From: Prauserella salsuginis
GTDB lineage: Bacteria; Actinomycetota; Actinomycetes; Mycobacteriales; Pseudonocardiaceae
Length of the DNA: 64,000 nucleotides
Reading direction: 5' to 3'
NCBI RefSeq assembly: GCF_024648885.1
Contig: NZ_JANBBF010000011.1
Span: 248,001-312,000, forward strand
Below, one piece after another: positions 46,310 to 49,652 of this stretch. Position numbers and translations under genes: made by a program. Within the stretch, counting starts at the first letter, position 1. Each line of letters begins with the position of its first letter. Under the pieces are notes generated by a model that had not been told where the DNA came from, searched no databases, and saw nothing but the letters and a program-made list of their open reading frames with translations.

Positions 46310-48436
46310 GTGAGCACTGAGGACCTGTCGGGCGGCCACGTGGCCGAGGACATCAAGGACGTGCCCGCCGACGTGCGTGAGGAGCACGCGGCGCTGACCG
46401 AGGAGGTCAAGGGCCACCAGTTCCGCTACTACGTGCTGGACTCGCCGACCATCTCGGACGGTGAGTTCGACACGATGCTGCGCCGCCTCGAAGAGCTGGA
46501 ACGCGACTATCCGGGACTGGCGACACCGGATTCGCCCACGCAGAAGGTGGGCGGGACGTTCTCGACCGAGTTCGTCGCCCACGACCACCTCGAGCGCATG
46601 CTCAGCCTCGACAACGCGTTCGATGTCGACGAGCTGCGCGCGTGGGTCGACCGGGTGGAGAAGGAGATCGGCGGCCGCGCCCGGTACCTGTGCGAGCTCA
46701 AGATCGACGGGCTGGCGGTGAACCTGCTCTACGAGAACGGCAAACTCACCCGGGCGCTCACCCGCGGTGACGGGCGCACCGGCGAGGACGTCACGCTCAA
46801 CGTGCGCACCATGCAGGACGTACCCGACCAGCTGACCGGCACCGACGAGTTCCCCGTGCCAGGGCTGGTCGAGGTGCGCGGCGAGATCTATTTCCGCGTC
46901 GAGGAGTTCGCCGAGCTCAACGCCGGCCTCGTCGACGCGGGCAAGCCGCCGTTCGCCAACCCCCGCAACGCCGCCGCCGGTTCGCTGCGGCAGAAGGACC
47001 CGAAGGTCACCCGCACGCGCCCGCTGCGGCTCATCTGCCACGGTCTCGGCAAACGACAGGGTTTCGAGCCCGCCCGCCAGTCCGAGTCGTACGAGGCACT
47101 GGCCGCGTGGGGCCTGCCCGTGTCGAGCCACAGCACGACGATCGACGACGTCGAAGCGCTCGTGCGGCACATCGAGTACTGGGGCGGCCACCGGCACGAC
47201 GCCGAGCACGAGATCGACGGCGTGGTCGTGAAGGTCGACGACGTCGCACAGCAGCGCAGGCTGGGGGCCACGGCGCGCGCACCGCGCTGGGCGATCGCCT
47301 ACAAGTATCCGCCGGAGGAGGCGACGACGCGGCTGCAGGACATCCGCGTCAACGTCGGCCGCACCGGCCGGGTGACGCCGTACGCGGTGATGGAACCGGT
47401 GAAGGTCGCCGGGTCGACCGTCGCGATGGCGACCCTGCACAACCGTGAGGAGGTCGAACGCAAGGGCGTCCTCATCGGCGACCGCGTGGTGATCCGCAAA
47501 GCGGGCGACGTGATCCCCGAGGTGCTCGGCCCCGTGGTCGACGTGCGCACCGGCGACGAGCGGGCATTCGTCATGCCCGACCACTGCCCGGAGTGCGGCA
47601 CCGAGCTGGCTTACCAGAAGGAGGGCGACGTCGACATCCGTTGCCCCAACGCGCGTACCTGCCCGGCGCAGCTGCGGGAGCGGCTGTTCCACCTGGCGGG
47701 CCGCGGCGCGTTCGACATCGAGGTGCTCGGCTACGAGGCGGCGGCCGCGTTGCTGGAGTCGGGTGTGCTGACCGACGAGGGGGACGTGTTCTCCCTCGAT
47801 GAGGACAAGCTGAGCCGGGTCGACCTGTTCGTCACCAAGTCGGGTGAGTTGTCGGCGAACGGCGCGCGCTTGCTGGCGAACCTCGACGCCGCCAAGGATC
47901 GTCCACTGTGGAAGGTCCTGGTCGGGTTGTCGATCCGGCACGTCGGGCCGACCGCGGCGCAGGCGCTTGCCCGCGAGTTCGGCTCCATCGAGGCCATCGA
48001 CGCGGCGACCGAGGAGGAGATCGCCGACGTCGACGGCGTGGGCCCGACCATCGCGGCGGCCGTGCGTGAATGGTTCGCCGTCGACTGGCACCGCGAGATC
48101 GTCGACAAGTGGCGCGCCGCGGGGGTGCGCATGGAGGACGAACGCGACACGTCGATCCCGCGCAACCTCGAGGGGCTGTCGATCGTCGTCACCGGGTCGC
48201 TGGAGAACTACTCCCGCGACGAGGCGAAGGAAGCGATCATGGCCCGCGGCGGCAAGGCGGCCGGGTCGGTGTCGAAGAAGACGGCGTTCGTCGTCGTCGG
48301 TGACGCACCGGGCTCGAAGTACGACAAGGCTCTGCAGCTCAAGGTGCCGGTGCTCGACGACAACGGCCTGACCGTGCTGCTGCAGCAGGGTCCCGACGCC
48401 GCACGTGAGATCGCGGAGGTCGCCGCCGATGAGTGA
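46310..48436 (+). CDS. ligA: NAD-dependent DNA ligase LigA
   Basis: Essential DNA ligase, 708 residues, GTG start. Domain Ia: [19 protein letters not shown]. Adenylation lysine in [17 protein letters not shown] at about 130. OB fold from about 330 ([18 protein letters not shown]), zinc finger CPECG...CPNARTC at about 425-450, helix-hairpin-helix repeats, and a C-terminal BRCT domain ([20 protein letters not shown]). The end, EIAEVAADE, lies in a 28-bp sequence repeated 729 bp downstream. Its TGA overlaps an ATG that would have been the acetyltransferase start before the MNT/HEPN insert. Confidence 0.97.
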
Positions 48437-48441
48437 GATTC
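48414..48441 (+). repeat. 28-bp direct repeat, left copy (ligA end)
   Basis: Identical to 49143-49170. The match continues 5 of 6 bases further. It spans the last LigA codons (VAADE), the TGA stop and an overlapping ATG AGT GAG ATT. Confidence 0.95.
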
Positions 48442-48482
48442 TGGTGCCTGGTGGCGGCGCGATGGACGGCTATCCTGTCCTC

Positions 48483-48803
48483 ATGGATGAGGCCACAGCA
48501 CGCTCGCGGAGTCTGCGGGCGATGCTCCGGCTCCGCAGTGACGACGTGCTGGCGGTCGCGAGCCGGTACGGCGCCTCGAACCCTCGCGTGTTCGGTTCGG
48601 TGGCCAGGGGGGACGCGGGCCCGAACAGCGACATCGACATCATCGTCGACCTCGGCCCCGGTGCGGGGAACCCGCTGTTGGCCGTCGCGGGGATCAGCGA
48701 CGAACTGGGCGAACTCCTGGGGGTTCGGGTCGACGTCGTCTGCGACGAACTCCTCCGGGATCGCATCTCGGATACCGCGCACGCGGAGGCCGTGGCGCTG
48801 TGA
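48483..48803 (+). CDS. mntA: MNT-family nucleotidyltransferase (antitoxin MntA-like)
   Basis: 106-residue minimal nucleotidyltransferase. The catalytic pattern GS(x10)DxD is complete in RVFGSVARGDAGPNSDIDII, with a third acid in RVDVVCDE. In characterised HEPN/MNT pairs this protein AMPylates the HEPN toxin on a tyrosine and silences it. In-frame ATGs at 48429 (inside the 28-bp repeat), 48462 and 48483 are possible; only the last gives a family-like N-terminus (MDEATARSRSLRAML). Its TGA overlaps the HEPN GTG. Confidence 0.9.
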   Translation: MDEATARSRSLRAMLRLRSDDVLAVASRYGASNPRVFGSVARGDAGPNSDIDIIVDLGPGAGNPLLAVAGISDELGELLGVRVDVVCDELLRDRISDTAHAEAVAL

Positions 48804-49165
48804 GCCGGACGGATGCCGAACGCCTCGGGGACGTGCTCACAGCGTTGGAACGGTGCGTGAGATTCCGTGCGCACTCGGAATCCGACGATTCCACGGTGTC
48901 GGACATGGCGCTCGATGCGATTCTCCGGAATCTCGCCGTCGCGGGTGAAGCTGTGCGGGCATTGCCGGACGAGGTTCGCACCCAGTTCACGTCGACGTCG
49001 TGGCACAGCATCGCCGGTTTGCGCAATATCGTGATCCACGAGTATTTCCGGATCGACAATAAGATCATCTTCGATGTGGTCGACAACCACGTGGGGCGTC
49101 TCGTCGACGAGATTCGCAGCCGACTGTCCGGCACCGGTGAGACGGAGGTCGCCGCCGATGAGTGA
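48800..49165 (+). CDS. hepT: HEPN-family toxin (HepT-like RNase)
   Basis: 121-residue helical protein with the HepT motif Rx4HxY seen as RNIVIHEY at about 86-93. HEPN RNases of this type cleave RNA or tRNA, and the tyrosine is the AMPylation target of the MNT partner. The GTG start overlaps the mntA stop by 4 bp. The last residues ETEVAADE repeat the LigA C-terminus because the 28-bp repeat copy lies there, so the toxin tail looks recombined. The DNA of this gene is visibly richer in A and T than ligA or gatA. Confidence 0.9.
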   Translation: MSRTDAERLGDVLTALERCVRFRAHSESDDSTVSDMALDAILRNLAVAGEAVRALPDEVRTQFTSTSWHSIAGLRNIVIHEYFRIDNKIIFDVVDNHVGRLVDEIRSRLSGTGETEVAADE

Positions 49166-49170
49166 GATTC
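49143..49170 (+). repeat. 28-bp direct repeat, right copy (acetyltransferase start)
   Basis: Second copy of 48414-48441. It holds the hepT stop and the start ATG of the acetyltransferase gene in the same TGA/ATG overlap as at ligA. Confidence 0.95.
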
Positions 49171-49652
49171 GGGTGCGGATCGCAGAGCCCGAGGAATACG
49201 CGGCCATCGGCGAGTTGACGGTCGAGGCGTACACGGCGGGCGGGCATCTCGCCGACGACGTCGGGTACGACGCGGCGCTGCGGGACGTCGCGGGCCGCGC
49301 GGCGACCGCCGACGTGCTGGTCGCGACCGGCGGCGACGGCGCGGTGCTCGGATCGGTGACGGTGGTCGAAGCCGGCAGCCCGAAGGCCGAGGTGGCGCGG
49401 GCCGGTGAGTTGGAGTTCCGGATGCTCGCCGTGTCGCCGGACGCCCAGGGCAGGGGAGTGGGCGAGGCGCTCACCAGGGCCGTCGTCGACATCGCCCGGG
49501 TGCGGCGCATCAGCCGGGTCGTGCTGTCCAGCCGCGACCGCATGACCACGGCCCATCGGCTCTACGAACGCCTCGGCTTCACCCGCACCCCCGAACGGGA
49601 CTGGGCCCCGCACCCGGAGGTTCCGCTCCTGGCCTTCGGGATGGACGTCTGA
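49158..49652 (+). CDS. GNAT-family N-acetyltransferase
   Basis: 164-residue GNAT protein of unknown substrate. MSEIRVRIAEPEEYAAIGELTVEAY at the N-terminus, LEFRMLAVSPDAQGRGVGEALTRAVVD with the acetyl-CoA pyrophosphate loop (QGRGVG) at about 95-100, and TTAHRLYERLGFTRTPERDW at the C-terminus. Its start is inside the 28-bp repeat. Without the MNT/HEPN insert it would directly overlap ligA. Confidence 0.9.
   Translation: MSEIRVRIAEPEEYAAIGELTVEAYTAGGHLADDVGYDAALRDVAGRAATADVLVATGGDGAVLGSVTVVEAGSPKAEVARAGELEFRMLAVSPDAQGRGVGEALTRAVVDIARVRRISRVVLSSRDRMTTAHRLYERLGFTRTPERDWAPHPEVPLLAFGMDV

Follow-up and report, generated by a model that had tools for sequence, protein, structure and literature searches.

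Operons gain genes even though overlaps between their genes make insertion difficult. The locus described here raises the question of how new genes can enter such a tight junction. It lies in a 64,000-nucleotide (nt) stretch of the Prauserella salsuginis genome (contig NZ_JANBBF010000011.1, positions 248,001 to 312,000; hereafter the window), in which an mntA-hepT pair is located between ligA, encoding an NAD-dependent DNA ligase, and a gene for a GNAT-family acetyltransferase (Table 1). We consider it very probable that the pair forms a toxin-antitoxin operon of type VII (HEPN/MNT) and that, in the lineage of Prauserella sensu stricto, it entered the 8-nt overlap of ligA and the GNAT gene by insertion. 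The toxin system is already known; the interesting part is the insertion route, which preserves the overlap. A toxin unit can in this way enter the neighborhood of an essential gene without breaking that gene.

The junction repeat

The sequence at 48414-48441 is identical to that at 49143-49170 over 28 nt, and followed out to 48447 and 49176 the two copies agree at 33 of 34 nt. They start 729 nt apart and enclose an insert of 701 nt. These values are the same as those in a preliminary description of this DNA. The VAADE codons, the TGA, and the overlapping ATG that it placed in each copy are part of an 8-nt overlap, ATGAGTGA, in which the GNAT-type ATG lies at 48429 and the stop codon of LigA occupies 48434-48436. 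The last six codons of hepT (EVAADE) and its stop derive from the right repeat, and LigA ends identically, so that HepT does end in LigA tail residues as had been proposed. The junction repeat occurs exactly twice in the 5.64 Mb genome, with up to three mismatches allowed. In 20 first-order Markov simulations of the 64-kb window, the longest exact repeat with a spacing of at most 1000 nt was 13-17 nt. A chance origin of the 28-nt repeat is ruled out by these simulations and by the relatives described below.

The insert is richer in A/T than its neighbors, again as first described, with a G+C (GC) fraction of 0.658 compared to 0.696 for ligA, 0.731 for the GNAT gene, and 0.716 for the whole window. 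Most of this dip comes from hepT (0.620; mntA is 0.704). The preliminary description had also predicted that removal of 729 bp would restore the ligA-GNAT overlap. When the window is reduced to one copy and the insert is removed, it matches P. alba at 214 of 233 nt and P. halophila at 208 of 233 nt across the junction.

Empty and filled sites in relatives

The genus comparison covers seven genomes, Prauserella species and Saccharomonospora sp. CUA-673 as close relatives, with one genome per species throughout. A wider survey covers 80 named ligA loci, a set to which the window's own genome does not belong. P. alba and P. halophila possess a single repeat copy, and their ligA overlaps the GNAT gene directly by the 8 nt ATGAGTGA, which is the arrangement that had been predicted for relatives without the pair. 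Across the survey, a GNAT gene is downstream of ligA on the same strand at 38 of 80 loci. Thirteen of these 38 have the insert-free 8-nt overlap (P. alba, P. halophila, and 11 outside the carrier group), as ATGAGTGA (n = 8), GTGAGTGA (n = 4), or ATGACTGA (n = 1); the remaining 25 have longer or shorter spacing. The 13 loci include those of P. flavalba, P. endophytica, P. shujinwangii, several Amycolatopsis, Tamaricihabitans, and Labedaea. By comparison, mntA is present at 3/80 loci and hepT at 2/80, all of them in Prauserella. Since the empty overlap is shared by relatives and outgroups, the empty site is ancestral and the insertion is derived. These empty sites support the earlier claim that the pair entered an existing two-gene junction with duplication of that junction and with both neighbors intact. 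The states before and after insertion are both preserved in sister species and the duplicated junction is still readable, and thus the route of gain and clean loss is directly testable.

Read by eye, the ligA/GNAT junction of Amycolatopsis tucumanensis (locus L058, 7103-7560) is apparently expanded by several degraded copies of its own unit of Shine-Dalgarno sequence (SD), start, and stop.

Four genomes carry mntA at the ligA junction: the window's, P. isguenensis, P. rugosa, and P. aidingensis. The pair is intact in P. isguenensis, and in P. rugosa it is flanked by copies matching at 48 of 49 nt. In P. aidingensis (locus L049, 7127-7600) mntA is intact, but an in-frame deletion that has GACA at its ends leaves a hepT of only 37 amino acids (aa). 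The RX4HXY motif is lost with this deletion, but hepT is still joined to the LigA-like tail and still overlaps the GNAT gene. The duplicated unit at this junction extends from the SD of the downstream gene to beyond the stop of the upstream gene. The window and P. rugosa share an identical first duplicated base, and in both hepT enters the last codons of LigA in frame (EVAADE and EVAGDE). The EVAADE tail is absent from all 26 hepT homologs that were aligned from other loci; most stop near the end of the inserted part of hepT, and two (L033, L042) extend further. The left leader is 12 nt shorter in the window, P. isguenensis, and P. aidingensis than in P. rugosa, a difference that slippage between GGTGC repeats would explain.

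The ligA/GNAT junction of CUA-673 (locus L107), which was read by eye, contains no pair; there is instead a repetitive insert of about 120 nt with a short overlap copy on either side. The short tandem repeats that fill this junction (7101-7237), of the kind CGTGTTGGC.../CGCGTGTTCTGCACCC, also occur in the window at 15013-15096 and 21472-21513.

Table 1. Coordinates of the ligA/GNAT locus and of the gltB/gltD junction in the window.
Feature	Position	Strand	Evidence and remarks
ligA, NAD-dependent DNA ligase, 708 aa	46310-48436	+	Pfam and NCBIfam equivalog match; final codons EVAADE and stop within left repeat
Left junction-repeat copy	48414-48447	+	Exact over 28 nt, 33/34 over full length; contains SD-like GGAGGT, the end and stop of LigA, and the GNAT-type start ATGAGTGAGATT
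Insert leader	48448-48482	+	Probable leaderless-promoter -10 box TATCCT (48471-48476), then 6-nt spacer
mntA, minimal nucleotidyltransferase antitoxin, 106 aa	48483-48803	+	PF01909; GSX10DXD; NCBIfam MntA below cut-off; PDB 1wot by sequence
hepT, HEPN RNase toxin, 121 aa	48800-49165	+	PF01934; RX4HXY as RNIVIHEY; NCBIfam HepT below cut-off; C-terminal comparison
Right junction-repeat copy	49143-49176	+	Supplies hepT stop and GNAT SD and start
GNAT-family acetyltransferase, 164 aa	49158-49652	+	Pfam GNAT; ancestral partner of ligA in the 8-nt overlap
gltB/gltD junction	25337-25441	-	Two 20-nt copies GGAGGCGGCTCATGGCTGAC (25422-25441, 25337-25356); 65-nt insert, spacing 85

Identity and probable expression of the pair

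The GSX10DXD motif is found in MntA of all four carriers (in the window as GSVARGDAGPNSDID). The RX4HXY motif has the form RNIVIHEY in three carriers (the window, P. isguenensis, and P. rugosa), being deleted in P. aidingensis. The PF01909 and PF01934 matches adjoin each other and are both above the gathering score. Against this identification, the NCBIfam models NF047752 and NF047751 gave 33.6 and 42.5 bits, under their cut-offs of 60. Thus, motifs and Pfam place the pair in Class I HEPN/MNT, and it is not classed with those equivalogs. A sequence search of the PDB returned 1wot for MntA and no match for HepT. In PADLOC the best match for MntA is PDC-S09, with no match for HepT. The ratio of nonsynonymous to synonymous rates (dN/dS) is 0.08-0.12 for mntA in six species pairs; for hepT, compared in the three pairs that do not involve P. 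aidingensis, it is 0.13-0.16. These values point to purifying selection on both genes.

The closest characterized system is the type VII HepT/MntA pair of Shewanella oneidensis (SO_3166/SO_3165; PMC7641770), which likewise consists of neighboring MNT and HEPN genes with GSX10DXD, RX4HXY, and PF01909/PF01934. There, MntA transfers adenosine monophosphate (AMP) to the RX4HXY tyrosine and the RNase is blocked (PMC7641770). By analogy, HepT would cleave RNA and MntA would silence HepT by adenylylating this tyrosine. Unlike the Shewanella pair, the Prauserella pair lies within an overlap between two other genes, its toxin ends on the tail of the upstream gene, and its scores are below the NCBIfam cut-offs. 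A phage or plasmid origin of the pair was rejected: MntA had no phage match at E 1e-5, and of 1453 matching plasmid records the eight listed have 44-47% identity, with one further record in the 60-80% band.

In each of the four carriers, a spacer of exactly 6 nt separates a TATYCT box from the mntA start codon (box and spacer at 48471-48482 in the window), and a TANNNT box at the same distance precedes only 6 of the 4426 start codons on both strands of the window. One other locus (L016, genome G207) has TATTCT-N6-GTG at the equivalent place. A -10-like box in range is found at 3/27 homolog loci, L016 included, and it is thus ruled out as a family-wide trait. Judged from the sequence, the leaderless promoter probably arrived with the inserted module. 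The module would be transcribed both from this promoter and by read-through from ligA. The proposed coupling of the toxin unit to the essential ligA is thus probably not the sole route of expression, since mntA has its own conserved -10-like box.

In all four carriers the mntA frame has no stop codon upstream as far as the duplicated ATG at 48429. Between the window and P. isguenensis, the 18 codons from this ATG to the start at 48483 have 9 nonsynonymous and 2 synonymous changes, compared to 9 and 25 in the body of mntA. The start at 48483 is therefore preferred, and translation from 48429 is disfavored because the 18-codon extension has no sign of protein constraint.

The L016 locus (about 1500-1970, minus strand) holds the closest mntA-hepT outside the genus. 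The locus is unrelated and the pair is broken, with similarity in hepT ending after about 55 aa.

History of the insertion within the genus

A tree of ligA and gltB only weakly resolves the window, P. alba, P. halophila, and the P. isguenensis/P. aidingensis pair (supports 56 and 62). P. rugosa groups with CUA-673, with a support of 100 for both genes together, 100 for gltB alone, and 52 for ligA alone. The best-fitting history is a single gain of the pair, with later gene conversion, precise loss, and exchange by way of the flanks. Several observations weigh against it in its simplest form. Synonymous divergence (dS) between P. rugosa and the window is 1.15 for mntA and 1.40 for hepT, compared to 0.46 for ligA and 0.57 for the GNAT gene. 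Between P. isguenensis and P. aidingensis it is 0.035 for mntA, which is almost the same gene in the two species, compared to 0.16 for ligA and 0.29 for the GNAT gene. The insert is thus out of step with its flanks and simple vertical descent is insufficient. In addition, the left and right repeats differ at a single site of 34 both within the window and within P. rugosa, and yet between the two genomes the left copies differ at 7 of 34 sites and the right copies at 6 of 34. The picture is less clear in P. isguenensis and P. aidingensis, where left and right copies have 3 and 5 differences; the right copies of the window and P. isguenensis have one. With one genome per species, the effects of a single origin cannot be told apart fully from those of lateral exchange or of concerted evolution between the repeats.

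An alternative is that two or more independent insertions took place at this junction, one in P. rugosa and one in the group of the window, P. isguenensis, and P. aidingensis, each with its own duplication. Repeats that are alike within the window and within P. rugosa and not between them, an insert in P. rugosa with about twice the divergence of the GNAT gene and more than twice that of ligA, and a tree partner of P. rugosa (CUA-673, support 100) that lacks the pair all agree with such a history. However, the window and P. rugosa share the first duplicated base, the hepT join, and the spacing GGTGCCTGGT-18 nt-TATCCT, and lateral exchange through homologous flanks or gene conversion between the copies would account for the remaining points. 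We therefore regard independent insertions as rather unlikely, and retain the single gain with later exchange, conversion, and loss as the preferred history.

The exact direct repeats and clean empty sites could also reflect site-specific integration, with the repeats as attL and attR, or a transposon with target-site duplication. This appears improbable. The 701-nt insert is occupied by mntA and hepT, leaving no room for a same-strand recombinase (antisense open reading frames were not tested), although a recombinase acting in trans is possible. The length of the duplication also varies, from 14-22 nt at single host junctions around the mini-ORF described below to 49 nt at ligA in P. rugosa. 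It follows the SD-start-stop unit instead of having a constant length or a shared core, although the cases compared carry different inserts. MntA, as noted, is without a phage match at E 1e-5. The least credible alternative, to which we give almost no weight, is that the pair is ancestral and that P. alba and P. halophila arose by deletion between chance repeats. Within the genus, whose five closest species are weakly resolved, the pair may well have been lost by recombination between its repeats, but the repeats are far above chance, and for the genus as a whole the outgroups with an insert-free 8-nt overlap already contradict it.

A hairpin mini-ORF at other overlapping junctions

The preliminary description had noted a like duplication at the gltB/gltD junction, and two 20-nt copies of GGAGGCGGCTCATGGCTGAC were found there (Table 1). 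As at ligA, the duplicated unit extends from the downstream SD past the upstream stop. At gltB/gltD, P. aidingensis and P. rugosa have an empty overlap; an insert is present in the window, P. isguenensis, P. halophila, and P. alba, and it is longer in P. alba. The P. alba insert belongs to a hairpin element of about 105 nt with the core peptide DRVGPPLWHAFSPQQGRVSRKT; the window insert is read as an internally deleted form of it. CUA-673 has a different-looking insert that is shorter than in the other four filled species. It may have arisen independently, or it may be the same element after heavy shortening; the second possibility counts against our overall interpretation.

The element is mostly read as a mini open reading frame (mini-ORF) of 40-45 aa, which starts on or next to the copy with the downstream start and ends on the copy with the upstream stop. 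When 390 family genomes were searched by pattern, allowing up to three mismatches, it was found at 23 places (among L193-L219) in 12 genomes, mostly at overlapping gene junctions and in some as tandem arrays. A flanking direct repeat with a score of at least 11 was present at 20/23 places compared to 4/184 control windows, and with a score of at least 14 at 15/23 compared to 0/184. These 23 places are not independent, as they include the same junction in relatives (L199/L203/L205; L209/L219; L212/L218) and neighbors in tandem arrays (L210/L217; L213/L215), and in L208, L210, L211, L213, L215, and L217 the flanking repeat includes element sequence. No flanking repeat was found at three places (L204, L206, and L207), and at L200 the mini-ORF is outside the usual reading frame. 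The two mini-ORF peptides tried had no match in Pfam. A third duplicated overlap is that of P. halophila (L194, contig G003:C1, about 1009426-1009550), where the mini-ORF sits in a TGATG overlap with an exact 19-nt duplication, and the same junction is single in the window (12014-12032) and in P. alba.

Rickettsia palindromic elements are palindromic elements that are inserted in frame. The hairpin mini-ORF resembles them in that it mostly stays open as coding sequence. It differs in being located at gene junctions, not inside genes, and in being mostly bracketed by host SD-start-stop copies.

A possible route for gene gain in overlaps

Insertion at ligA duplicated the junction, over 49 nt as in P. 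rugosa, of which 28-34 nt are left in the window. Each copy contains the ribosome-binding site and start of the downstream gene and the last codons and stop of the upstream gene. The left copy keeps the LigA tail and the right copy the GNAT SD and start, and hepT, which ends on the LigA tail, overlaps the start of the GNAT gene. Because each copy holds a full SD-start-stop unit, LigA and the acetyltransferase both stay intact. Coupling by termination and reinitiation needs an overlap, and a gap of about 20 nt nearly abolishes it in Haloferax and E. coli (PMC10666635). By analogy with these organisms, there would be a survivor filter: in tight junctions only insertions that duplicate the whole SD-start-stop unit would survive, since an insertion without the full unit would damage one neighbor. 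Recombination between the copies would then permit clean loss and would homogenize them.

One option for the duplication itself would be fill-in at a staggered break followed by end joining, and Ku is encoded in all seven genomes of the genus set. In plants, insertions with tandem duplications arise at staggered breaks by patch-mediated repair. The likeness is that filler DNA separates the two copies of a short target, together with the presence of Ku in the genus. The present cases are bacterial and lie at overlapping gene junctions, and a shared mechanism is hypothetical.

The ligA case led to the hairpin mini-ORF, which marks a similar route at other junctions. We put forward, tentatively and as somewhat less than an even prospect, that tight gene overlaps in these actinomycetes offer a general and repeatable route of gene gain. 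DNA arriving with a copy of the SD-start-stop unit may be spliced between two copies of it with the chain of translation unbroken, and may later drop out cleanly. The route may have carried a toxin-antitoxin pair at ligA and, repeatedly, the mini-ORF of about 105 nt, which would live almost only in overlaps and spread between them. A literature search judged by titles and the openings of abstracts found no description of overlap-duplicating insertion, which is not proof of absence.

Surveys for further duplicated junctions

For an insertion survey, 312 kb were aligned pairwise among the window genome, P. alba, and P. halophila. The three pairs contained 79, 83, and 81 length gaps of at least 20 nt, of which 30 (9 + 14 + 7) were flagged as flanked by an overlap in the empty genome. 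We viewed 22 of these 30; the other eight are the ligA site twice, three repeats of viewed places, one tandem array, and two gaps of more than 14 kb. By eye, clean copies in the filled genome were present only at ligA/GNAT and in the 19-nt P. halophila case, the rest being tandem or ragged. The gltB/gltD junction is filled in all three genomes and hence invisible in this survey; it was seen in comparison with P. rugosa.

A scan for duplicated SD-overlap units did no better than its control in P. halophila, with 19 hits compared to 11. Fourteen of the 19 are in a repetitive stretch at 240.8-246 kb and were set aside; the remainder are gltB/gltD (two hits) and three weak hits, and the scan missed the 19-nt case. 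In P. alba the scan returned gltB/gltD only, with no hits in the control. Over 312 kb of the window genome there were five hits, compared to one in the shifted control. Four of the five are ligA/GNAT and gltB/gltD, both of which were counted twice, and the fifth is a 14-nt match that includes a mismatch.

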